Shown: positions 42,454-59,839 of the stretch, piece after piece
Layout: every line of letters starts with the position of its first letter
Numbering within the stretch: the first letter of the stretch is position 1
Assembly (NCBI RefSeq): GCF_009389715.1
Contig: NC_052397.1
Span: forward strand, 15,200,129-15,264,128
Direction: 5' to 3'
Length of the DNA: 64,000 nucleotides
Origin: Phoenix dactylifera
Taxonomy: Eukaryota; Streptophyta; Magnoliopsida; Arecales; Arecaceae
Made by a program: the position numbers and the translations under genes
Notes under the pieces: generated by a model
Databases searched by the model: none
The model's input: the letters and a program-made list of their open reading frames with translations, nothing else
Told to the model about the DNA's origin: nothing

Positions 42454-44332
42454 TGTTGGCCCGCGGGGCTTTGCGGTTCCGAACCCCGTGCCAAGGTTGA
42501 GGGTTTGCCGTGCGTTGGGACCGACTTGATGTGGGTATCTCTCTTCCTTCTTGCTGCTTTGGATCCACGCCGTGTGCTACTGCCTTTGGGCTGCCGGCGG
42601 TGGGAAAGAATCAATGTGGGGCTCAATGTGTTGAAGGAAGTTGACTCTTGTATACCAATAAGCAACGATTACAAGGACTCAATGCAAGATCCGGAAGAAA
42701 CCTTGCTATGCCTAAAACAATCTAAGGGGAGTGATGTTCTCCACCTTAGCCCAAGCCTTTCGGCTGAATGAAAAACAAAGGGGTACAACCCTTGACACTA
42801 TGCTGGAAATTCAATTGCTAAGAGATGATTGCCGGCCCTAATGGCTCCTCTTATAGGCCGATTGCCTTGGCTTATTTTTGGACTTAATTCAAATGACAAA
42901 GGACTTCTAATTCGGCCGCAAGGGCCTGACCAAACTTGGCTCTTCTCTTGGCCATGTGTTGCATTGAGTTGGGCGCTTGGGATTTGATCTCGGTGTGGCC
43001 TGTGCACGTGTCATGAGCTGAGGCTGCCATCTGCCCGTGCGCAGCCTGATTTGGTGTTGTGCTGGGCGGCTGGGCTGCGCTGCCTGATTTGCTGTGATAT
43101 CCTTCCTGATTTGCAGGGGTGCGTTGCTGTTGCCTTGGCTCCCATGGATTGCTAGCGTGGCTGTCCTCGGTGCGTCCATCCTTCGGCCTGCTGTATCCTG
43201 GCCGCCTGTGTCTTCTCCTGCCGGATCCCTATGGAAGAGCCCACAGGCTCCTCCTTTGATTCTGCGCGTGCGCTTTCCTTGTTTGGCCCGGCGCCGATGT
43301 TGAGATGCTTGCCATGTGTCTCGGTCGGTTGGTTCTGGCCGGGCGCAATCTGATGATGGTTTTTCTTGTTTGGCCTTGCGCGCGGATGGTTGCCACTTGT
43401 CCTTGGGCGCGCTCTCGGCCGGGCTGACGGCGGCTTGCCTTGTTTGGCCTTGCGCGCGGATGGCTGCCACTTGTCCTTGGGTCGCGCTCTTGGTCGGGCT
43501 GATCGTGGCTTTCCTTGTTTGGCTTTTGGGTGTGCGCGCGCTGGCTGGTCCGGGTCCAATGCATGCGGGCTCGGTTGCCTTGCTGTGTCTTTGGCTGGGC
43601 TCAACCCGTGCGCTGTCCTTGGGCTCGTCTGGCTTGGGCGCGCTCGGCCGAATGCAGTCTTGGCCGGTCCTTGCGCTTGCTGTGCTTCCTTGTGCGTGTG
43701 CGCCCAAGTGCGCACGCACGGGCTGGTGCTCCTGGTTGCCGCTCGTGCCCATGCCCATGTCTGGCGTGCGCGCAACCCACTGTTGCGCGGGCGCCAAGTG
43801 CTGGCGAGGGGCGGGGAGGCGGCTTTGCTGTGCACTGGCCGACTCCAGGCCTGGCGAGGTTCGGACGCGCCAGGCGGGCGCGGGTGCGGGGCGCGGGCGC
43901 GGGCGCTGGGCGCGCCGGGCGGGCGTGGGCGCTGGATGCTGGGCGCGCCGGGCGGGCACGGGCGCAGGCGCCTTGGCTGGTGGCCGCGCGCAGGCAGGCG
44001 CGCGGGCTGGCACGTGGGCGTGCGCCTGTGGCCGGGCTGCTGCGGTGGGCGCGCAGGGGGCTGCGCGTGCCGTGGGCTGTCTGGGCGCGCGGTTGGCCGC
44101 GCGCTGCTGTGGCTGGCCATGTGCGCGGTCGGCCGTGCGCTGCTGCAGAGGGCGCAGAACCTTGCATAGGTGCTGGTCTGGGCCTGCGCGGGGTTGTGCC
44201 GTGGGCTGAGGGTGCTGGCCACTGCTTGGGCAGACCTCCAAGCAGTGGATTTGGCCCGGGCGTTGGTCTTGGCCGAGGTTGGCCTCGGCCATACTTGCTA
44301 GATCTTGGCTTGGCGGGCTGAGGTGTCTATCA
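42454..44332 (+). mobile_element. Nested solo LTR, 1879 bp, inside the 5' LTR
   Basis: The insert starts TGTTGGCCCGCGG and ends TGTCTATCA. It is flanked by identical acgtg at 42449-42453 and 44333-44337, and the sequence between the flanks is absent from the 3' LTR. TG...CA ends and a 5-bp duplication are the signature of LTR-element integration. I see no internal gag-pol and no second LTR, so a solo LTR is the simplest reading; a non-autonomous element with very short LTRs is the alternative. The right half is extremely GC-rich, which leaves long stop-free frames on both strands; I treat these as artefacts of composition. Confidence 0.72.
43289..43545. repeat. 75-bp tandem repeat inside the nested LTR
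   Basis: The block starting cttgtttgg recurs at 43364, 43439 and 43514, a strict 75-base period, with a looser copy at 43278. Because 75 is a multiple of three, open frames pass through it and produce repeated peptides. Confidence 0.8.
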
Positions 44333-44337
44333 ACGTG

Positions 44338-44547
44338 CCTAAAGGCGCCCTTCCAGGAGGCGCCTGACCTGGAGGCGCCCGACCAGAAGGCGTCCGACCT
44401 GGAGGCGCCCGACCAGGAGACACCTGACCTGGAGGCGCCTAATCAGGCGCCCGACCAGAAGGCATCTGACCTGAAGGCGACCGACCAGGTGCCCGACCTG
44501 GAGGCGCCCGATCAGGCCTTAAGGCCCGCAACCAGATCTGGAGTCTG
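44338..44547 (+). repeat. 5' LTR, second part, with 15-bp array; truncated
   Basis: Resumes the LTR after the nested insert (cctaaaggcgcc). About twelve copies of a 15-base unit (gaggcgcccgacc type) follow, then aaggcccgcaaccag, shared with the 3' LTR near 54502. At about 44547 it departs from the 3' LTR and runs straight into gag, so the last roughly 700 bases of the LTR, the primer binding site and the start of gag are gone. Confidence 0.75.
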
Positions 44548-44564
44548 ACCAAGCTACAGAGCCC

Positions 44565-45540
44565 TCATGGCATTGCAAGGGTCCTCGGAGGCTGTGCTCT
44601 GCAAGGCCTTCCCTGTGACTCTTCGGAGAACGGCTCGGCTTTGGTTCTCGGGACTGAAGCCGAGCACGGTATCCTCCTTTGAGTAGCTCGGCAGGCAGTT
44701 CGCTACCAAATTTGCTGTCAGCCGACGCCAGCGGCAAACATCGGATTCCCTTCTGGACGTCAAGCAAAAGGACGGGGAATCTTTTAGAGAATATCTCGAC
44801 CGCTTCACTGCTGCAACCTGGGAGGTCTGCGAGCTCGACCAGTCGATAGCCATGTCGGCACTGAAGACTGGGGCTCGCTCTTGCAGATTCCTCTTCTTTA
44901 TCGAGAAGAGCTTCCCCGCCGACTTCACTGAGATGCTGGCCCGAGCTTGAAAGTATGCGAAGGCCGAGGAGGCTATCGCCTCCAGAAAGGGCGCGACCGA
45001 GCAGGCCTCAAAGAAATAGAAGAAACGCCGCGAAGAGCGCGGCCGCCCAAGAAGCCGATCTCTCCGCCGAAATAACCAGCCTCGACTGAGGAGCCCACCT
45101 CGACAATGGGAACAACCATGGCCAAGGTCCCCGCCTCGACAGCAATCTCCACCGCGACCACGGATGTCCACGGATGTCCCCATTGAATGCCCCCCGAGCA
45201 GAGGTCCTTATGGAGATAGAAGGTCGGGACTATTTCCGACCTCCACCCCCAATGCGGGACACGGGAGCTTGGCGCAATCCTAGGAAGTATTGTCGTTTCC
45301 ACCTGGACAACGACCACGACACGGAGGATTGCTTGCAGCTCCGAGATGAGATCGAGGTGCTCATCCGCCGCGGGGTGCTCAACCGGTTCGTGCGGAACTG
45401 GCGCGAGGAAAGGAGGCTAGCGGAAAATGCCGCACCGAAGGTCCAAATGATAATAGACCCATCGCCGGCACCATCAACACCATTTGGGGGAGAAGCTCGA
45501 CTGAAGAACCAATCGAGGGAAGGACCCCTCCGAAGCGCCC
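44565..45540 (+). pseudogene. gag remnant of the Tat element
   Basis: Retrotransposon capsid (Retrotrans_gag) core is readable on the plus strand: LWFSGLKPSTVSSFE, then RQFATKFAVSRRQRQTSD and SFREYLDRFTAATWEV. At least three in-frame stops interrupt it (after SSFE, after LARA and after ASKK). The C-terminal part has YCRFHLDNDHDTEDC, the Cys/His motif usual for Tat gag. A frame change near 45460 precedes the protease. The N-terminal part was lost in the deletion that also cut the LTR. Confidence 0.85.
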
Positions 45541-48500
45541 GCGCACCTTCGAAGCCATCTCATTCTCAGACAAGGACATGGAAGGAGTTGAAACTCCTCA
45601 TGATGACGCTGTAGTCATCTTTATGATTGTAAATAAGTTTGATGTAAAACGTGTCCTATTTGATAATGGAAGCTCGACGAATGTTTGGTACTACGATGCC
45701 TATCAAAAAATGGGGATGACGGAAAGCCAGCTTCGGAGAATGAATGCTCCACTAATCGGATTCACCGGGGACTCCGTCCTGGTTGAGGGTGAGGTCAGCC
45801 TTCTTGTCACGGTCGGTCTCACTCCCCGAGAAAGCACTGTGAGGATGGACTTCCTTGTGGTCCGCCTGCCTTCGGCCTACAACGCCTTTCTCGGACGACC
45901 AGGGCTAAATGCCCTCCAAGCTATGGTCTCGACTTACCACTTGCTTGTACGGTTCGCCACCGACCAAGGAGTAGGCGAAGTTCGTGGGGACCAGCTGATA
46001 GCTAAGCGGTGCTATATGGCAACCCATAAAGCCAAGCAACCGGCTAAAGCACCAAGCCAAGAGGAGCAAACTGCCGAGGCGCCAATATTAAATCAGGCGC
46101 TACCCATTGAAACCTTAGAGGTGCAGGACGACCTCTACAAGGAACGGGTAGAGCCCGGTGAGCTTCTTACCCAAGTTCCATTAAGACAAAACTGCCTAGA
46201 GCTAACTGTGCAGGTCGGCTCGGGCCTGAGCTCCCTCGAAAGGGACCGCCTGATCGAGTTCCTTCGGACCAACATGGACATCTTCGCCTGGTCGCCCGCC
46301 GACATGCCGGGAATCGACCCTAAGGTCATGGTCCACCAGCTCCAAGTGAAGCCGACCTACAGACCCGTGCGGCAGAAGAAACGGGGCTCCGCCCTGGAAC
46401 GACAACGGGCAACGACAAAGGAGGTGGACAAACTTCTCGATGCCGGCTTCATCCGAAAAATCTTCTATCCGGACTGGCTCGCCAACGTGGTCCTCGTGAA
46501 GAAATCTAACGGAAAATGGCGCTTGTGCGTGGACTACACCGACTTGATCAAAGCTTGCCCAAAGGACAGCTTTCTACTTTCCAACATCGACCAGCTCGTC
46601 GACTCCACCTCGGGACACCAGTTGCTGATCTTCATGGATGCCTTCTCGAGATATAATCAAATCCGAATGGCGCCGGAAGATGAGGAGAAGACGGCTTTCA
46701 TCACCGATAGGGGCACTTATTGTTATAAAGTGATGCCTTTCGGGTTGAAGAATGCCGGAGCAACATACCAAAGGCTGGTCGGCCAAATCTTTAAAGACCA
46801 AATAGGCTGGAACATGGAGGTCTATGTGGACGACATGCTGGTGAAAAGCCGAACGGTGGAGGACCATGTGGTCGACCTCAGTGAAGCATTCTTCATTCTC
46901 AGAAAATATCAAATGAAGCTCAACCCTGCAAAGTGCGCCTTCGGAGTCACCTCGGGCAAGTTCCTTGGGTTCGTGGTAACCCAACGGGGAATCGAAGCAA
47001 ACCCTGAGAAGATCCGAGCGCTACAAGGGATGGGGCCTCCGAAGACGGTCAAAGAGGTACAGCGACTCACTGGGAGGGTCGCAGCTCTGAGGAGATTTGT
47101 CTCCAGGTCGGCCGAGCGGTGCCTCCCATTCTTTAAGATCCTCAAGCGACCGAAGGACTTTTTATGGTCGGAGGAATGCCAGCATACTTTTGAAGAGCTC
47201 ATGCGCCTTCTTGCTTCTCCGCCACTACTCACCAAACCCCAGCAGGGTGAGCTCCTTTATCTATACTTGGCCGTCTTCCCGGTTGCGGTAAGCTCGATCC
47301 TGGTCTGAGAAGAGAACAAGCTCCAAAGACCAGTGTACTACGCCAGCCGGGTCTAAGGGATGCTGAGACAAGGTATTTCAGACTAAAGAAATAATTTTTG
47401 TCTTGGTCACCTCGGCTCGGAGGCTCCGACCTTATTTCCAGGCCCACACTGTGGCCATATTGACCGACCAGCCAATGAAGCAGATTCTGCAGTGGTCGGA
47501 CCGCGCCGGGAAGATTGCCAAGTGGGCAGTTGAGCTCGAGGAGTTCGATCTCGAATACCGTCCGAGGCCGGCAATCAAAGCTCAGGCGCTCGCCGATTTT
47601 ATCGTGGAGTGCACTTTGCCCGACGACCCCGAGCACCAACTCATGCCAACGAAGGAGACCCCGGGGTAGCCATGGTTCCTACATGTGGACGGCTCCTCGA
47701 CCTCGGGGGGTAGCGGAGCCGGTCTTATCCTTACAAGCCCAGATGGGGTAGTTGCAGAGCAGGCCCTACGCCTCGAGTTTCCGGCCTCGAACAATGAGGC
47801 AGAGTATGAGGCATTCATCGCCGGGCTCAAATTGGCGAAGGAGCTAAAAGTCGAGGATCTGAAGGCTTTCAGTGACTCCCAACTGGTCGTGAGCCAGATC
47901 CTGGGGGACTTTGAAGCAAGAGAGCCGTCAATGCAGAAATATCTCCGGAAGGTGCGGGACCACACCTCTACTATGAGCTCCTTCAACATCCAACATATTC
48001 CCAGGACAGAGAACCTGAGAGCAGACGAACTGTCGAAGCTGGCGACCTCCCGCATGAGCGAGCTTCCTAAGGCAACAATGCTCGAATATCTTCAAATGCC
48101 TAGCACGGAGGAGCCTGAGCCGACCCTCTACATCGAAGTTGAACCGAGTTGGATGGACAAGCTTGTCAACTATCTACAAGGTGGAGTCCTCCCCAATGAC
48201 GAGCTCGAGGCTCGCCGAATCAGGCATTTAGCTTCCCGATTCATATTGTATGAAGGCAAGCTCGACCGAAAATCCTTCACCTCTCCTCTCCTCAGATGCC
48301 TCTACCCGTCAGAGGCAGACTATGCTATGCGAGAAGTCCATGAAGGGATATGCGGGAACTATCTAGGAGGCCAAGCACTGGCTCATAAAATCTTGCACCA
48401 AGGATATTTTTGGCCCACACTCCAAAAAGACACAACGGACTTCGTCCGAAAATATGACCGATGCCAGCGGAACGCTAATATCCAGCGCCGACCCTCGGCC

Positions 48501-49381
48501 CCGCTGACCTCGATTAGTGCCCCCTGGCCATTCGCCCAGTGGGGGATTGACATCCTGGGGCCATTTTTTCTGGCAACCGGCAGAGAAAATTTCTGGTTAT
48601 CTCCATCGACTACTTCACCAAGTGGGTCGAAGCTGAACCAGTGGCCCGGATCACTGAGCAGAAGATGCGGAACTTTGTGTGGAAGTCGATCATCTGTAGA
48701 TTTGGACTCCCCCGCATCCTCATATCTGACAATGGTCGTCAGTTCGACAACATCCGTTTAAGAGAATTATGCTCCGTGCTCGGCATCGATCACCGCTTCA
48801 CCTCGGTCGCCCATCCACAGACAAATGGAAAAACCGAGGTGACGAATCGCACCATTCTTCAGGAGCTCAAAGTTAGGCTCGACCGCTCTAAAGGACAATG
48901 GGTCGAAGACCTCTATAATGTCCTCTGGGCCTACATAACAACATTCCGGCTCCCCACCAGCGAAACCCCCTTCAACCTAGCATACGGAACGGAAGCTGTT
49001 ATTTCTTTGAAAGTTGGACTCCCCTCACCAAGAGTGGAACACTACGACACGACCTCCAACTCTTCCCAACTCAGGGGCAACCTGGACCTCGTCGAGGAAA
49101 CAAGGGAAGCTGCCTGAGTTCGTATGGTAAGGTATCAACGAAAAATGGCACAGTACTATAACTCCAGAGTAAAAGCCAAGCTCTTCAAAGTGGAAGATCT
49201 CGTCCTCAGGAGGGTTGAAGCTTCTCAGCCTTTCGAGCAGGGGAAGCTAGCCCCGAATTGGGAATGACCCTACCGGATCGCACGTATCCAGCGGCCCGGA
49301 GCATAAAAGCTGGAATCTCTCGAAGGAACCCTCATCCCACGAAGCTGGAATTCCGAGAATCTACGGATGTATTACCAGTAA
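45541..49381 (+). pseudogene. pol remnant: protease, RT, RNase H (two), integrase
   Basis: The protease has VLFDNGSSTNVWYYDA (active-site Asp). The reverse transcriptase has RLCVDYTDLIKACPKDSF, VMPFGLKNAGATYQ and the YVDD catalytic box at 46823-46834. A stop at 47306-47308 and further frame breaks disrupt the first RNase H. The second, archaeal-type RNase H starts near 47670 (FLHVDGSS) and continues through NNEAEYEAFIAGL and FSDSQLV. The integrase has a zinc-finger region in which the first Cys of CxxC is Tyr (KYDRCQRN), then WGIDILGPF, ISDNGRQF and QTNGKTEVTN carrying the D, D and E residues. One base is missing near 48582. The reading ends at TAA 49379-49381 with WNSENLRMYYQ. Two RNase H domains place it in the Tat clade. 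Confidence 0.9.
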
Positions 49382-49631
49382 AACCCCAAGGGGTTCCTGG
49401 TGATCGGGAACATGAATCCCGTCTCCTCCTTACGATAATTCATCTACAGTTCTCCTTTGATCATGCTATCTTTCTCCTAATATTGGGACATTTGTGATCC
49501 TCAGATTACCCGACTCAGCTCGGATGCCCGACACAGCTCGGATGCCCGACCAAGATCGGATGCCCCAGCCAAGCCTGGAACGCTCTGCCGCATCGATATC
49601 GAGCTTGGTCTCGATCTCCCTCAAAGACCCC

Positions 49632-50240
49632 GACTAAGTTCGGGATGCCCCGTGTGTCGCCGTAGAGTCCCAAACTCCCTCGACCTCGTGAAGTGTCACA
49701 GATCGACAGTGCGTTCCCAGACCCCTCGACCTTGCGCACGATCCTTCGACTAAGATCGGGATGCCCCGTGTGTCGACCGTAGAGTTCCAACTCCCTCGAC
49801 CTCGGAAAGCATCGCAGGTTGACAGTGCATTTTCAGACCCCTCGACCTTGCGCACGATCCCTCGACTAAGATCGGGATGTCTCGTGTGTCGACCGTAGAG
49901 TTCCAAACTTCCTCGACCTCGGAAAGCGTTGTAGGTCGACAGTGCATTCCCAGACCTTTCGGCCTTACGCACGATCCTCCGACTAAGGTCGAGATGTCCC
50001 GTTGAGTCGACAGTGAGCCCAAGCTCCCTCGACCTCGGAAAGACGGGATAGTACCTTTGCGGCACTCCGTGGCACTCGACATCGACAACGAGGTAGTACC
50101 TTCGCGGCCCCCCCGTAGCGCCTCCTCGACCAAGGTCGGGATGCTCCGTGTGTCGACCGTAGAGTCCCAAACTCTATCGACCTCGGAAAGCGTCACTAGG
50201 TCGACAGCGAGCCCCAGCTCCCTCGACCTCGTGTTCGGTA
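49632..50240. repeat. 116-bp tandem repeats after pol
   Basis: The phrase gactaagatcgggatgcccc (and variants) recurs at 49632, 49748, 49864 and 49981, a 116-117 base period, with a further copy at 50128 after a spacer. Each unit also carries gtcgaccgtagagttcc and ctcgacctcggaaagcgt. Tandem arrays in the 3' untranslated part are known in several Tat elements and can seed satellite DNA. Confidence 0.85.
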
Positions 50241-51464
50241 CCTCGACCAAGATCGGGAAGACAACAACGGGGCAGGACCTTTGCGGACCCCCGTGGCCTT
50301 CAACAATGGGGTGGCGCCTACGTGGACACCCCAACGTGCGGGCACACCAAAAACAGAGTGAATACACGACGTTCTCCCCTGATCGGCTGGTGCAGGCTAC
50401 GCTGTGGCGCGAGGCTTTGACCAAGTGCCGCCTCATTCTACCACGGATGACATCACCTGCGGAAGCGGGCTACGGGCCAAAGAACACCTCTAAGAGCCGA
50501 GAGCGGAATTGGCTACCTGGACCCGAGGTGCTCGGCTCCGACGGTGCGAAAGATACTTTCCACATAGCATCTACATTATTGCATTTACTTATGTACCAGA
50601 ACGATCGTCAAAATCCCGACCAACCTCAGGACCTTCCCCGACCAAGATCGGGATACCCCTCCGAGCCAAACACAAGCTGAGGTCTCCTCGATGTAAGGCA
50701 TGGTCTTCTCACCATTGATTTACAAATCAATCCATGCGGGCCTCTCAGAATGAGGGCTCGGTCAAGCCTAAATGTCGATCTGGGTCGACGCCGGCCTGCA
50801 ATGACGATTTCAAGCCCAGATATTTGGCCAAGCTCGGGAATGCTGAGTCACAAATTCAATTAGACTTATAGGTACTCTGACCAAGTTTGAGACCAACAAC
50901 CGTGAGAACCCCGACGATAGCTTGACTCTGGTCCACTATCTCCTTGGGGACCGACTCTGGGTTTTTATAAGGTTATACCCGGCAAGCTAAGCCCAAAGGC
51001 TCGGCCAAAATCTCTCGGGAGATGGACCCGAAGACCCGACAAAACCCCTCCGGAGTCCAAGGCTCGAGCTTAGCGCTCCGCCAATTTGGAAGCCGAGCTC
51101 AGGGGCTCGGCAAGATTCGAATCCGAGCTCAAAGATCTTGAATTTTCCTGAAGTCTGAGCTCGGGATTTTCCCTATCGGATCTAAGCTTAACAACCTAGC
51201 AAACGTACTCGGAACCTAAGTCTACGGATTCCAAATATATGAACGTAACCAAGTTCGCAGAATTGGCCGAAGGAAGCCAAAGGAAATTTTAACTTAAACA
51301 ATCGAAAAATTTACCATACAGAAGAAAGAGACGAGCATAAATTTAGGAAAAAGGAGCTCTTCATTAAAAGTCCAAAAGCTAAGTACAAAACCAAGATTTG
51401 GCCGTACAATTTTGAGGGCTGACCTTGTTGACAGAACAAAAAAGAAGAAACAGAAAATAAAACC
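50241..51464. other. 3' untranslated region of the Tat element
   Basis: Between the tandem array and the end of the antisense gene. It shows scattered diverged echoes of the array (accaagatcggga, gagctcgggg) and no open frame I can support. Confidence 0.5.
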
Positions 51465-53517
51465 CTAAGGAGCGGGCGCAGCTCCGGGATCGTCTACAGA
51501 GGCCGCCTCGACGCTCCTTGTTGAAGCCTCGCCAGGTCCTTCCGCCAACCCGGACGCGGTATTGGGAGCTTTGGCCGAGACATCGTCCGCAGCTTCGGGG
51601 GCGGCGTCAGGAGCTCCTTCAGGTGCCTCCTCGGTGGAAACCTCCCTGGCCTCTCGGACCTCGGCCTCACCCATGTCTTTGGGCCCATCCTCGCCTTCTT
51701 CAATCCCTGCTTCGGGCTGGAGCAGGTTGAGGTCGAACTTGGGGCAGAGCCGCTTAAGCTGATTTCGAAAATCTTCAAAACTGCGGATAAGTCCGTCCAT
51801 GGCTTCCTCCTCCATTAGCTCGCGGAACTTCTCCGACTTCCGGAAGAGTTGCACCGCCCGTTCGGTTCGCTCCTCGGCCTTTTTCTCCCGAGCCTTGAGC
51901 TGCTCGATCTTGAGTTGAGCAGCCTTTACCTCGTTCTGATGAACGACGAGCATGGAGCGGGCCTCAGCCAGACGAGCCTCTGTAGAGCGCACCTCCGATC
52001 TGGCCAAGGCGTGTGCGCCCTTCTCCTCCCCAATTTCCATGGCTCGAGCCCGAAGCTCGCCTTCGACGGCCTCCACCTTTGCGAGAAGCTCTCTCCGCGA
52101 GGACTCAACCTCGCCGAGCTTCTTCTCGGCCTCCTCCCGACCCCTCAGACATCTTCGGGCCCGCTCCCGGTAGTCTGTCTCTATGTGCATGCGGGTCTCA
52201 ACCTCGTGGAGATGCTGCAAACAGCGGGTGGAAGAGCGAATTAGGGCTAGAAACTTAAAGCTAAAAACGAGAGTCAAAAGACAAACTTACCCGGACACCG
52301 GAGCAGTAAATTCCGTCCAGGAAGCTGTTGTAGCTCATGGACCGGATCTCGGCCTGGTCGGCCGGGAGCAGCGTGACTCGGAAGACCTGGCGCGCTACTA
52401 CAGGATTGGTGAGGGCCGAGTCACCCTCAAAAACCTCCCACCCGGGGAAGTACAGCGTCCTCTCTGGTCGGGCCTCACCCTCCGAGGGACCCGGGAGACC
52501 AAGTCTTGCTGGGCTCGACGAGGACGACCCTGCAGCTTCTTGGCCGCTTCCCGACTTAGGCCTTGGCCATTGGGGTCGGACAGGCGGCCGAGTCGGCCGC
52601 TGCGAGATGGGGGCTGGGCACGCGAGCGCTGCAGAAGTCCCCGCAGAGCTCGAGCCCCCACGGTCGGAGCTCGGTACCTCCCTTCGAGCAGGCCTGGAAG
52701 CCCCGCCCAGGGCTGTACCCATCTCGACACCCGCGCCAGACAAAGTTCTGGCTTTCTTCCTCGGCTCAGGCGGGGCTCTGCCAATCTCGGCTGCCCTCTT
52801 TCGGAAGCGAGCGTAGATGGCTGCATTCTTTGTCACCATCTTCGGAACGTCTGGAAGAACAAAGAGTTTAAATGTTAGGAAAGAAGAGACAGAGCAGAAC
52901 AAACGACAGAAACCATCACCCTTACCCTGAGGGCGCACCGAGCTCAAGCCTACGTTGACTAACGCGTCCTCACTTACGAGGTCGTTCAGAAGGATGTTTT
53001 CCTCGAGGCCGTATAGAGCATTGAGGATCCTCTGCTCATTCTCGGACAGTTTGGGGAGTCTGTTAGCATTCTTGAGCCGAGTCTGCCCCCACCTGGGGTC
53101 GAATCCCCATGACCGCTCGGAGGACAAAAAGAAGAGTTTCTCCTTCCACCCGTGAATGGATGTCGGAGCGCCCCGAAAGAATGATCGACCACCTCGAAGG
53201 GCAAGATAAAGCCATTCTCCGTCTTCCGGGTTGGACTTCAGTAAGAAGCACCACCGAAAGACGTTGACAGAAGTCGGTATTCCGTGCGCAATGCACAAGG
53301 ATAGAAAACCGACGATCGTCCTCCACGCATTTGGAGCGAGCTGCGCTGGAACAAGTTGGTAAGTCACCAGGAGCTCATTCACAAACGCGTGGAAGGGGAA
53401 CCGCAGACCGGCCCAGAGTGTTTCCAGATGCACCCCGATCCGACCCGGGGGGGTCTCGTCACTCGATCCCCCAACCCCGCAGGTTCCAGACGGAACCCCC
53501 GCTGAGGAAAAAACCAT
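51465..53517 (-). CDS. Spliced antisense gene in retrotransposon (gypsy-type PF04195-like)
   Basis: Minus-strand exons 52926-53517, 52291-52850 and 51465-52214 join in phase (introns of 75 and 76 bases, both GT-AG with GTAAG donors and pyrimidine-rich acceptors) into 633 codons without a stop. The N-terminal part has FPFHAFVNELLVTYQLVPAQ and NAWRTIVGFLSLCIAHGIP. These are typical of the domain Pfam calls putative gypsy-type transposon (PF04195), which I recognise from memory. A basic segment (RFRKRAAEIG), a Ser/Pro/Gly-rich linker, a long Glu/Arg/Ala coiled coil in exon 3 and an acidic Ala/Pro tail follow. Maize Grande carries a gene in the same antisense place. The start at 53517 is the first in frame; an upstream ATG at 53582 or 53549 would fit if the T6 run near 53510 were one base longer. 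Function unknown. Confidence 0.72.
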
Positions 53518-54126
53518 TCCTCAGCCATCTCTACTTCCTCACCGCTCATGGTGGATTCGAATTCGTTCGGACCACGACCCATCTCAGAAAAATGATCAGA
53601 GGGAAAGCAAAAACCTCCGAGCAGACAAAGGGGGAAAAGGCACCTACTGAAATCTTCGCCGGAAATATCAATGGATCAGAGAGAGGCGCAAAAGCTGCCT
53701 CGGAATATCGCCGGAAGGAACAGAAGGTAGGAAGAAGGAACAAGGGGCGACTATAGCGGCAGCCAAATAAAGGCCCCCGGGGCCAGAAAGGGCATTTCTA
53801 TAGACCTCTCCGACGGCCCGGATCGGCGGAACAGGATCACGCCTTCCGTCTAGATCGTGCCATGCGTCAGCCCTAAAAACCGAAACGACATATTAAATTT
53901 AGACCGACGCCTTGAATACAAAATCAAGAAAGCGCCGTATCGGATTGCGAAGCCCCATCATGAGCTCACGAAGCGAGGACGCTTCGAAAAGCGAAAGGGT
54001 GTCGCCTCGTCTCCTCCCATTAAAAGCGCCTTAAAGCGCGCGGAACGCCGAAATAATTCGAAATCTCCTGGCCCCCACCAACGCGGTAAAAACAGCTACT
54101 TCCCACGTCCGAGCTCGCTCAAACTC
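53518..54126. other. Upstream region of the antisense gene
   Basis: This would be the promoter and leader of the antisense gene and, on the plus strand, the last part of the element before the polypurine tract. No convincing TATA box was seen on the minus strand. Confidence 0.4.
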
Positions 54127-54141
54127 GAAAGTCGGGGGTAG
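54127..54141 (+). other. Polypurine tract
   Basis: gaaagtcgggggtag directly abuts the 3' LTR. This is the expected position of the plus-strand primer for reverse transcription. Confidence 0.6.
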
Positions 54142-54192
54142 TGTTGGGGGAAAATCAGTTACTCCAAAACGTATAGGGCACGCGGTTGGCAC

Positions 54193-54508
54193 GTGCCTAA
54201 AGACGTCCGACCAGGAGGCGCCCGACCAGAAGGCGTCCTACCTGGAGGTGGTCCTACCTGGAGGTGCCTGACCAGGCGCCCGACCAGGAGGCGCCCGACC
54301 TGGAGGCACCCGACTTGGAGGTGCTTGACGAGAAGGCGTCTGACCTGGAGGCGCCTGACCAGGCGCCCGACCAGGAGGCGTCCGACCTGGAGGCGCCCGA
54401 CCAGAAGGCGTCCGACCTGGAGGCGCCCGACCAGAAGGCGTCCGACCTGAAGGCGCCCGACTAGAAGGCACCCGACCTGGAGGCGCCCGACCAGGCCTTA
54501 AGGCCCGC
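54193..54508. repeat. 15-bp minisatellite in 3' LTR
   Basis: Roughly 21 copies of a 15-base unit (gaggcgcccgaccag type, alternating gcgccc and gcgtcc forms). The 5' LTR has only about twelve, so the array has expanded or shrunk since insertion. Open frames through it (PDQEAPDLEAPD) are composition artefacts. Confidence 0.9.
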
Positions 54509-54670
54509 AACCAGACCTGGAGTCCGTTCAAGCGCTCAACTCCAAGGCTCCCCGCCCAAACACTTGGCCTTAGCATCCTCGACCTTGAGAGCTTGGTCTC
54601 CCAACTGCACCGTCCACCTGCTGCAATCACATCCACTTGCAGTCCGACCAGGGACCATGCCCTGCCATTG

Positions 54671-54796
54671 CACTCAACAATTAATGCGCATGGCCTCTGC
54701 TGATCTCCGGCTCACTCAACAATTAATGCGCATGACCTCTGCTGATCTCCAACTCACTCAACAATTAATGCGCGTGGCTCCTGCCATTTACGGATC
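54671..54796. repeat. 42-bp tandem repeat in 3' LTR, three copies
   Basis: cactcaacaattaatgcgc recurs at 54671, 54713 and 54755, a strict 42-base period, with a few substitutions. Confidence 0.9.
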
Positions 54797-54972
54797 TCAA
54801 GCCCTCCATGACAAATCCGCCCGGCCGCGTCCGATCAACCACGACGACTCATTACCGTCAACTTGATCTTCTATGTGCAAGGCATTAATTCGCACGATCG
54901 TGCATTAATCCGACACATACAATCATACGGTAATCCGTTCGCTCCGTCACATCGCAGGTATATCTATATCCC

Positions 54973-54982
54973 TCTATAAAAA
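54973..54982 (+). promoter_or_regulatory. LTR TATA box
   Basis: CTATAAAAAG about 250 bases before the LTR end, a normal place for the U3 promoter of a plant LTR. Transcription would start near 55005. Confidence 0.55.
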
Positions 54983-55231
54983 GAAAACTCGACCTCCGGA
55001 GAGGGGGTTGGCTGGCAAAAACTCGAAAAATTACTCTCTCTCTCTCCACATATTTGCCCCCTCTGACTTGAGCATCGGAGGGCCGGCGCCGGAAACCCCG
55101 GCTACCGGCTTCTTGCAGGTCTCCTGGAGAACGCCGCCCGCCGACGGACCATCGCCACCTATCATTCCAGCACCGGAGCTTCTCCTCCTCAGCCGACGGC
55201 CGCCCCGGGTCCAAATTCCAGCAACAAGATC

Positions 55232-57044: not shown

Positions 57045-59839
57045 TCAGAAGAAGGCAAAGGGGGAGGGGTTGACAACAATATGCTTGAGAGGGTGCGCAA
57101 CATCACCACCTCCTGCATGCCTCACGAACTCGGCGGGGGTGAGGAAGCTGCCATGGCACACACAAACTATTCTCACCTCTCCTCCCTTCTTATATTTGTA
57201 GAGGAAGCCTTCAATTCTTCTCCCATTAGGACCATCTCCCTTGGTAAACACACATGGCATCTCTTCTATCATGTTTCTCTCCATCTCCTTCATCACATTG
57301 GCTCTCCCTGCATTCTTCTTTGCAGGATCCTCTTCCCCTCCTCCGACAGAGCCGATAGCCTTCCCGACAGCGGATGTTGCAGCATTGGCTGCCATTTTGT
57401 GATTGGCATGTTCTGGCAGTGACTGGAAGGTTGAGGGGCTCCTGACTTCAGTGCAACTGGTGAACCCAGATACGTCGAACCCTGGGAAAAACAAATGACA
57501 ATGGAGGAATAAGTTGTTGGCAGTTGAATTATAAACAACATCAATATGAATAAACCCCTGCATGTTCTCATTTTGATTCTTCTTTTCCTTTATTATTTTC
57601 CCATAGGTAAATTGGTGAAACATTAGAAACACAAAACCAACCAGCTAATGACTGGTATGGAGATAGTAGAATATCCTGACAAAATTCAGCTAATATTGGT
57701 TCTCAAGTCAGGTAGGTCACTGCTCCATTCCAAACAGGAATCGGCGTTGCAGGTTTTGATACAGGACATGCTTGTTTAATTGCTGACTCTAGCACAAATT
57801 ATAACAATGTATATCTGAAAGGGATCAAATTGCTAAATATAGTAATAGGTATGCTCATACCATATGTATTTTAGAAGCAATCCTCATTGCTATGGAGATA
57901 TTTCTATACATATGATTCCATGATGTCTATCAGGTAAATAGTGAGTTCGAAATGGAAAACAGATGCAATACTTTTTTGCAATTTGTGGCTACTACTTCAG
58001 CACCAACATGAACTTGAAATGGAAAGAAACTCTGCTAATCATCAAACACATTCTACTAATGGGATTGAAATTAGACTACAGCTATAATTAGACAGAAGGC
58101 ATTGAAATTGTACGCAGGCTGACTTGAAGTTCCAGTCCACCCCTCTGAATCTGGATTGGATCCTCATCCAATGGTTTTGCAGAGTCAGATACCTGTTGGA
58201 AATCTGTCGTCTACGAACACGACATCATAATCTTCTGTTAAACGAACATGACATCATAATGTTCCGTTAAACGAACATGACATCATAATGTTCCATTAAA
58301 CGAACACGACATCATAATGTTCCATTAAACGGATAATAAAAGTAAGGCCTTACAGTTATGGGAAGGAATCTGCCATCAAAAAAGCATATAAATTCTTAAT
58401 TTTCAAGCAAATTGAGCACAGTTCCCTGCTAGACAACAGGCAATCACTTGAAGCTCCCAATGATTCCCACTGGGGTATCAGATCATTTAAATAACCTTAA
58501 ACATTTCCTTTCAAGAGATTCATAAAATGACACTAGACTCAATAAGAATCAAAACAAACCAGCCAGTGAAAAAGAGTTACAAGGAAGTAGAGGCATATTA
58601 GCAACCAGAAAGTAAGATAAAAGGATCAACCTACTGAAACCTCAATAATTACTTTCCTGAAAAAGGTCAGCAACTAGCACACTATACACTGAAGAAAATC
58701 CAATTCAAAAAAATAAAAATCTTTAAAAGCACAGTGGAACAGAGAAGTGGCAAAAACATCCTAAAGATCATCAAAATTGTACATTTTTCAACAAAAGAAC
58801 AGAATCAATTTAACAGAAAGCACAACAAAAATACCCACCCACAGCAACCATTATGACAGGACCCAACCATCCTCTGTATACTTCCTCATGCTGTGGGAAA
58901 TAAAGCAATCTAAACATGACTTTTCCCCCAAATCTCAGTACTTAAGCGAGCAGCAGACCCACCAACCTCCGATTCCAACCATGCCAACCTCAAACAAAGA
59001 TCAATTCATCAACAGTACTACTACTACTACTACTACGAAAGTTAAAAAAAAAATCACTATCAAACAAAAAATCGAGATAAAAAGAACCAATTTTTGTTAA
59101 GCAATTTCGCAAAAACTCGGGACATAAATTTAGAAGCAAGACAAGATCTTATACCTTGCTTTGGCCGGCTCTCGTACTCGGACATGCCGGAGCTACTCCC
59201 TTGCGATCCAATCGATCCCTGCGACATCGGCCAAGAAGTCGCCTGGCCGGAGCTCGCCAACCACCCCGGCAGCCCTGGAGGAGTAGCAGCATTCACCACC
59301 TTTCCGAGATGACCACCGCCGGGAAATCCATGGCCCCCATTGAGCCCGACCTCAAAGTTCCCCACCTTCATCGCCGTCGGCGCCGCCGAGCTCTGCCCTC
59401 CCTCCCAATCGTCATCCGCTCTCGGCCCCCGTTTCAAAGAATTCCTCTTCTCCGACCTCTTTCTCCTAGCTTCTAACCTCTTTAAGCTCTGGAGTTCCTT
59501 TCTCTTCCTTCGCTCCTCCTCGATCTCGGTCGGAAGAGAGCTCGTCCTGCTGAGGCCGGTGGCCACCGGGAACTCGGGCTCTGTCGGAAACGACGAGAAT
59601 GAGGCGATCGAGGACGATCGGACGAGCTTCTTCCCCTTGGGGTCGCCGCTGAAGCACCCTCCGAGGGAGAGCCCGAGGCTGAGCTCGATCTCGTCGTAGT
59701 CGCCGCCTGTTCCCTCCGGGTGCTTGTCGGCGAAGCTATTGCCAGCAAATCGCTTCAGGAAATCCTTCGAAGCGCTCTCATTCCGCGAGGTCATCTCCTC
59801 CTCCATCGAACCAGAACAAGCAAATGAAGAACCAAACAA
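57045..59839 (-). CDS. Ninja/AFP family transcriptional repressor
   Basis: Adaptor that links the TOPLESS corepressor to JAZ proteins or to ABI5 in jasmonate and abscisic acid signalling (family knowledge). Minus-strand exons are 59155-59839 and 57045-57481, phase 1, intron about 1.67 kb. From the ATG at 59806 ([10 protein letters not shown]) the protein has 362 residues; an in-frame ATG at 59839 would add 11. Domains in order: the EAR motif [10 protein letters not shown] at 41-50, a Ser-rich stretch, a bipartite basic nuclear signal ([19 protein letters not shown], near 96-114), a Gly/Pro-rich middle and the C-terminal conserved domain ([20 protein letters not shown], then [20 protein letters not shown] and [10 protein letters not shown]). 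The gene is intact. Upstream DNA carries seven CACGTG elements, which would fit ABA control. Confidence 0.92.
58211..58331. repeat. 29-bp tandem repeat in Ninja intron
   Basis: gacatcataat with flanking ttaaacgaaca recurs at 58221, 58250, 58279 and 58308, a strict 29-base period, four copies with minor variation. Confidence 0.9.

Follow-up and report, generated by a model that had tools for sequence, protein, structure and literature searches.

The 64,000 nt stretch of Phoenix dactylifera DNA analysed here, which we call the window, contains a Ty3/gypsy element with a predicted gene antisense to its own gag-pol, located on the minus strand in the region that separates pol from the 3' LTR. The parts of the element other than this gene are the following.

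44328..44554, plus strand: probable 5' LTR remnant, a repeat stretch matching 54259-54533 (repeat match)
44689..49117, plus strand: remains of gag-pol (ORF list, Pfam)
49628..50258, no strand assigned: array of ~116-bp repeats between pol and the antisense gene (repeat analysis, copy comparison)
54142..55226, plus strand: 3' LTR, beginning TGTTGGGGG, its end approximate (similarity to copy L010/L042)

The gag-pol region is broken into ORFs at 45174-45614, 45578-47308, 47685-48761 and 48641-49117; plus-strand Pfam matches to reverse transcriptase (RVT_1), RNase H and integrase are spread over several of these broken frames, and the first ORF (45174-45614) has no Pfam match. The pattern of matches among copies suggests that the number of units in the ~116-bp array differs from copy to copy. 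At the right-hand end, similarity to copy L010/L042 stops at 55226, beyond which the flanks differ. At the left-hand end no 5' LTR was found beyond the remnant at 44328-44554, and the window copy thus does not show two paired LTRs; we read this as truncation of the window copy and not as a trait of the Retand lineage. Both the remnant and the 54259-54533 segment of the 3' LTR consist of a minisatellite with 15-nt units and proline-rich frames, and the truncated end of the element adjoins a very GC-rich segment (42907-44292) with long overlapping ORFs on both strands. Elsewhere in the window, a minus-strand ORF at 59060-59839 encodes 259 aa with an LSLGLSLGG stretch, which we take to recall the NINJA family of plant proteins. 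The region between pol and the 3' LTR spans ~5.0 kb (49117 to 54141), within the 2,933-6,566 bp reported for this region in Retand elements (PMC11963269), and an antisense ORF encoding a TRP28 domain sits within it. By these two features the element can be classed, on sequence grounds, as a Retand/Tat-type LTR retrotransposon of the Ty3/gypsy group.

The antisense gene is predicted to have three exons and two GT-AG introns and to encode a product of ~630 residues, as follows.

52926..53582, minus strand: exon 1, with the family start ATG at 53582-53580 (alignment of copies)
53236..53430, minus strand: PF04195 Transposase_28 (TRP28) domain (Pfam, genome profile search)
52851..52925, minus strand: intron 1, 75 nt, phase 1, GT-AG (splice sites, copies, distant loci)
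52291..52850, minus strand: exon 2, a linker (frame, copy alignment, dN/dS 0.27)
52747..52809, minus strand: basic bipartite nuclear-localisation-like motif at the start of exon 2 (alignment read by eye)
52215..52290, minus strand: intron 2, 76 nt, phase 0, GT-AG (splice sites, copies, distant loci)
51465..52214, minus strand: exon 3, charged and helix-rich (coiled-coil-like), with an acidic tail and the stop codon TAG at 51467-51465 (frame, weak Pfam matches, dN/dS 0.28)

A preliminary description of this DNA had proposed an antisense frame of 633 codons with two GT-AG introns, and removal of 52925-52851 and 52290-52215 does leave such a frame, which opens at 53517 and ends with the stop at 51465. 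That description held both introns to be needed for the open frame, which is correct for intron 2 but not for intron 1, whose 75 nt contain no stop in the window copy and can be read through; in 24 of 33 copies (window included) retention of intron 1 would break the frame. Exon 1 is 658 nt long in 17 of the 30 rows for which spliced frames were read from the aligned copies. The frame is open to the family end in only two of the 29 other copies so read, L019 and L040, whose full spliced frames comprise 635 and 630 codons respectively.

The suspected relationship of the product to PF04195 is confirmed by a profile match of 57.3 bits against a gathering cut-off of 26.2 (E 1.9e-15), covering residues 30-94 of the frame that starts at 53517; a genome-wide profile search places the same match at G000:C6:15253364-15253558. 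PF04195, in exon 1, is the only domain that Pfam identifies in the product, while exon 3 yields weak matches, several of them to coiled-coil families. The basic motif of exon 2, which we take to be of the bipartite nuclear-localisation-like type, is recognisable in frame in 28 of 31 rows when the alignment is read by eye. No capsid-related domain was found by Pfam, and fold searches with a weak structural model (mean pLDDT 55.8) gave no PDB match at E <= 0.001; with this weak model no fold was recognised, and no structural or sequence relative came to light, such as the transposases that the Pfam name would suggest. The capsid-related role suggested earlier thus draws no support from Pfam or from these fold searches.

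The family to which this copy belongs was surveyed in the genome that contains the window (773 Mb in 2391 contigs). From 593 candidates, 40 copies were scored, one of them being the window itself, and 32 of the remaining 39 were fetched and aligned to the window as reference. Intron 1 keeps its GT in 31 and its AG in 31 of these 32 copies, and intron 2 its GT in 31 and its AG in 30; in the five exceptions AT replaces GT twice and AG once, and AA replaces AG twice. Over 33 copies the length of intron 1 ranges from 74 to 114 nt and that of intron 2 from 69 to 91 nt, with all three classes modulo three represented. In sequence, the introns show the traits of spliceosomal introns, with conserved GT-AG ends and an interior that is free to vary in length. 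Indels occur at 4.35 and 1.86 per 100 nt per copy in introns 1 and 2 (32 copies), and at 2.61 and 2.98 in the untranslated sequence that precedes and follows the gene, respectively; the exon rates are 0.15 (exon 1), 0.28 (exon 2) and 0.36 (exon 3). Multiples of three make up 40 of 51 indels in exon 2 and 64 of 73 in exon 3, 35 of 89 in intron 1 and 2 of 38 in intron 2; they account for only 4 of 25 in exon 1, which counts against the expectation for coding sequence. Three copies whose exon 1 start is not alignable (L032, L033 and L037) are kept in the splice-site and indel counts, in dN/dS and in the stop counts given below, and are left out of the reading of spliced frames and of the 28-copy tree.

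Precise loss of an intron was seen neither in the 32 other copies nor in the more distant loci where an intron could be placed (11 for intron 1 and 10 for intron 2). That no intron-less copy occurs among those examined suggests that copying proceeds through the sense RNA and not through a spliced antisense mRNA. The preliminary description had reasoned that introns in an antisense gene survive reverse transcription, and the lack of precise loss in the copies examined is what would be expected if the sense RNA is copied.

The same two introns are found well beyond the immediate family. Among 3465 first-look candidates for PF04195 in the genome, 150 were scored, all of them above the cut-off, and from these we picked 12 distant loci by hand for open frames and spread, rather than at random. 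Exon 1 is 63-86% identical to these 12 loci, and exon 2 could be matched in 11 of them at identities of 27-64%. Eleven of the 12 share the codon position of intron 1 and 10 share that of intron 2, the remaining loci offering no match by which to place the intron. Read by eye, the donors are GT in 10 of 11 loci for intron 1 and 8 of 10 for intron 2, and the acceptors are AG in 10 of 11 and 9 of 10, intron 1 of L047 being read a few bases upstream of the scripted cut. Another 20 loci were read for the donor of exon 1: 17 have it exactly where expected, two have AT instead, and one has GTAAGG displaced by one base. One set of exon 1 sequences retained only frames without stops; in one set of loci, 4 of 32 were skipped because they contain a stop, and another set was compiled without L055, L069 and L031. 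Distant families within one genome carry two introns at unchanged sites.

Substitutions among the copies are those expected of a protein-coding gene. Median dN/dS is 0.263 over 465 pairs from 31 copies, the near-duplicates L025 and L031 being excluded here and from the tree ratios, and the values for exons 1, 2 and 3 are 0.18, 0.27 and 0.28, lowest in exon 1; the other frames of the gene strand give 1.05-1.61. In pol the corresponding values are 0.127 for reverse transcriptase (8 copies), 0.183 for RNase H-integrase (10) and 0.136 for the integrase core (12). The mirror frame on the plus strand is also lowered (0.25, 0.37 and 0.41), although it is above the gene frame in each exon, and we think that the lowering comes from codon boundaries shared with the gene. 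Over 33 copies each exon of the mirror frame accumulates 166-177 stops, and no copy has this frame open; the gene frame over the same copies has 54, 12 and 21 stops in exons 1, 2 and 3.

On a tree of 28 copies the internal branches carry 625 nonsynonymous and 828 synonymous changes (a ratio of 0.75) and 6 stops, against a neutral expectation, under assumed base weights, of a ratio of 1.84 and ~84 stops. The terminal branches, with 1082 nonsynonymous and 922 synonymous changes and 51 stops, are intermediate, which is what one would expect of branches that span both an active and a dead phase. On the branch of the window copy alone there are 41 nonsynonymous and 21 synonymous changes and no stop, and neutral simulation of this branch, again with assumed base weights, gives 39.6, 20.4 and 1.99 respectively, with a probability of 0.137 that no stop appears. 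Selection in the family, together with a window branch that fits neutrality, indicates that the protein was maintained for as long as the lineage was being copied, and that the window copy has been decaying since. We conclude that the predicted antisense protein is under purifying selection in the copying lineage. The earlier suggestion of selection before or after insertion can accordingly be divided: selection before insertion agrees with the family dN/dS of 0.26, and selection after insertion finds no support, the window branch fitting neutrality and the N-terminus being frameshifted. A dN/dS near one, or a frame and splice sites lacking conservation in other copies, would have spoken against the gene; the ratio is far below one and the sites are conserved, and the proposal of an intron-bearing gene antisense to gag-pol in an element of the Tat group is sustained by conservation of both splice sites and frame.

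The N-terminus of the window copy is unusual with respect to the family. In the copies a conserved N-terminal region extends upstream of 53517, and the family protein begins at ATG 53582, in a different frame from ATG 53517; the latter, previously taken as the start, opens the frame of the window copy but is not the start used by the family. Near 53452, an additional base relative to the window is present in 30 of the 32 copies (L032, L033 and L037, which are among the 30, are not reliably alignable there), and the shorter form, a one-base frameshift, is common to the window, L009 and L010. The window N-terminus is thus frameshifted because a base is missing near 53452 and the family start at ATG 53582 lies in the other frame. 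Since the window and L010 insertions occupy unrelated genomic sites and share the frameshift, it seems that a subfamily transposed when its N-terminal frame was already broken. Such apparent mobility without a normal N-terminus points to a protein that is supplied in trans, or to an N-terminus that is partly dispensable.

Upstream of the family start lie two further features.

53795..53802, minus strand: TATA box, TATAGAAA in the window and TATATAAA in most aligned copies (copy alignment)
53803..54141, minus strand: conserved non-coding block from the TATA box to the 3' LTR, proposed as a promoter (identity per 60-nt row)

The TATA box is situated ~220 nt upstream of ATG 53582 and aligns in 20 other copies, of which 18 have the strict TATA pattern that is absent from the window. 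Mean majority identity in the block of ~340 bp is 0.83-0.87 per 60-nt row (17 copies and the window), and it is 0.86 in the row that contains the TATA box and 0.76, 0.77, 0.82 and 0.83 in the rows downstream, a modest drop; L009, L010 and L025 are excluded from these means. Ten of the 12 distant loci contain a single TATA cluster, which begins ~275 to 153 nt upstream of the start codon, with no further TATA in the 904 nt read, and the other two hold none. Within a fixed frame of -350 to -150, TATA is present in 8 of the 12, where chance would give ~1% per 200 nt. We propose that the conserved block and the TATA box constitute an internal promoter of the antisense gene, although the block may instead serve reverse transcription or packaging. 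A TATA box near the antisense gene fits the published description of maize gene23, which has a promoter upstream of itself (PMC7264820).

The locus probably holds a self-contained second gene of a Retand-type element, and this probability applies both to its antisense layout and to the way in which its introns survive. RNA polymerase II would make a spliced mRNA from the internal promoter, and the genomic RNA, transcribed from the 5' LTR on the other strand, would carry the introns as reverse complements; in that form they would present no splice signals and would pass reverse transcription intact. The product may enter the nucleus by means of the basic motif of exon 2, assemble through the C-terminal helices of exon 3 and bind nucleic acid or chromatin through TRP28, and the bound product could favour transcription of the family or its escape from silencing, partly in trans. 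A nuclear regulatory role of the product is nonetheless a tentative suggestion, and one that we regard as somewhat doubtful.

It could be argued that the introns are mere remnants and that only exon 1 (TRP28) encodes the active protein, exons 2 and 3 being carried along, given that exon 1 is the most conserved (dN/dS 0.18) and that 57 antisense TRP28 ORFs are reported as ORFs in their own right (PMC11963269). We consider this unlikely, as exons 2 and 3 are constrained too, at 0.27 and 0.28, and the intron sites are kept in 11 and 10 of the 12 distant loci. Somewhat less likely still is a role for the antisense transcript in place of the protein, in which the RNA would pair with the genomic RNA and regulate copying or silencing, the frame being a by-product. 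Regulation of this type has been discussed for these elements (PMC7264820) and the promoter-like block is conserved, but an RNA-only role would need no conserved splice sites, and it does not sit well with indels mostly in threes in exons 2 and 3 or with purifying selection on amino acids in all three exons, unlike the other frames of the strand.

The frame from 53517 is open even though pol is broken, which might be taken to mean that the host took over the window copy as a gene after insertion; changes on the window branch fit neutrality, however, and the N-terminus is frameshifted relative to the family, and this possibility appears very remote. The slightest probability of all attaches to an error of sequencing or alignment, or to decayed, GC-rich DNA that holds an open frame by chance. 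The copy is indeed decayed, and GC-rich parts of the region hold several long overlapping ORFs on both strands, but the intron layout is repeated in 32 other copies and in 11 of the 12 distant loci, the Pfam match is well above its cut-off and selection is frame-specific, and we regard this reading as refuted by the copies, the distant loci, the domain match and the selection together.

Starting from the self-contained spliced gene as the preferred reading, one can speculate more broadly that all reported Retand antisense TRP28 ORFs correspond to exon 1 of a single ancient gene that is spliced and has a TATA promoter of its own. This gene would have been captured in reverse as a complete nuclear gene, in the orientation that keeps introns through the RNA stage, and its product would be a trans-acting nuclear factor on which its family depends. 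This is a conjecture that we think possible, but we would lean against it if pressed.

Retrotransposons usually lose introns because they are copied through RNA, and antisense placement is a means by which a retrotransposon gene would escape this loss. The antisense HBZ gene of the retrovirus HTLV-1 is itself spliced. For the antisense ORFs listed piecemeal in surveys, the analysis also provides a precise gene model, and functional tests can therefore take the correct protein, promoter and start.

Antisense TRP28 ORFs have been reported in 97% of recent Retand clusters, with a regulatory role suggested and nucleic-acid binding predicted for TRP28 (Vicient 2025, PMC11963269). The window gene is like these ORFs in its position between pol and the 3' LTR, its antisense orientation, its PF04195 domain, the long region in which it lies and the tandem repeats nearby. 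The two accounts differ in that the published ORFs are those returned by ORF Finder, whereas in the window the TRP28 and charged helical parts are exons of one predicted gene; a term search finds no 'intron' in the main text of that paper (PMC11963269). Smc and similar domains are reported there in other antisense matches, and these Smc-like matches may correspond to the C-terminal exon of the antisense gene. The preliminary description, which considered the gene's function undescribed, was right in part, as to function, while the antisense TRP28 ORF as such is well described (PMC11963269; PMC7264820). Among the open-literature matches listed, none describes introns in antisense TRP28 genes, although an earlier mention in subscription papers (Gomez-Orte 2013; Steinbauerova et al.) is possible. 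Relative to the known antisense TRP28 ORFs, what looks new is the presence of conserved introns, of a C-terminal exon joined to the TRP28 part and of an internal TATA box.

The gene23 of the maize Grande element (Gomez-Orte et al. 2013, as described in PMC7264820 and PMC11963269) resembles the window gene in being antisense and in having its own upstream promoter, a candidate promoter in the case of the window; in maize the upstream promoter drives transcription of gene23 (PMC7264820), and the gene23 protein is found in the nucleus (PMC11963269). HBZ of HTLV-1 (PMC11963269) is likewise an antisense gene in a reverse-transcribing element with a nuclear protein, the nuclear location of the window product being a prediction. 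The HTLV antisense promoter lies inside the 3' LTR (PMC7264820), whereas the TATA box in the window is internal, and we claim no homology between the two. Plant LTR retrotransposons are generally without introns, with Ogre and EVADE as exceptions (2025 review, PMC12786077), and the window element joins Ogre (PMC12786077; PMC6317226) and EVADE (PMC12786077) as a plant LTR retrotransposon with apparently functional introns. In Ogre and EVADE the introns belong to the sense transcript, where their role is in gag-pol expression or in making subgenomic RNA, whereas those of the window element lie in its antisense gene.
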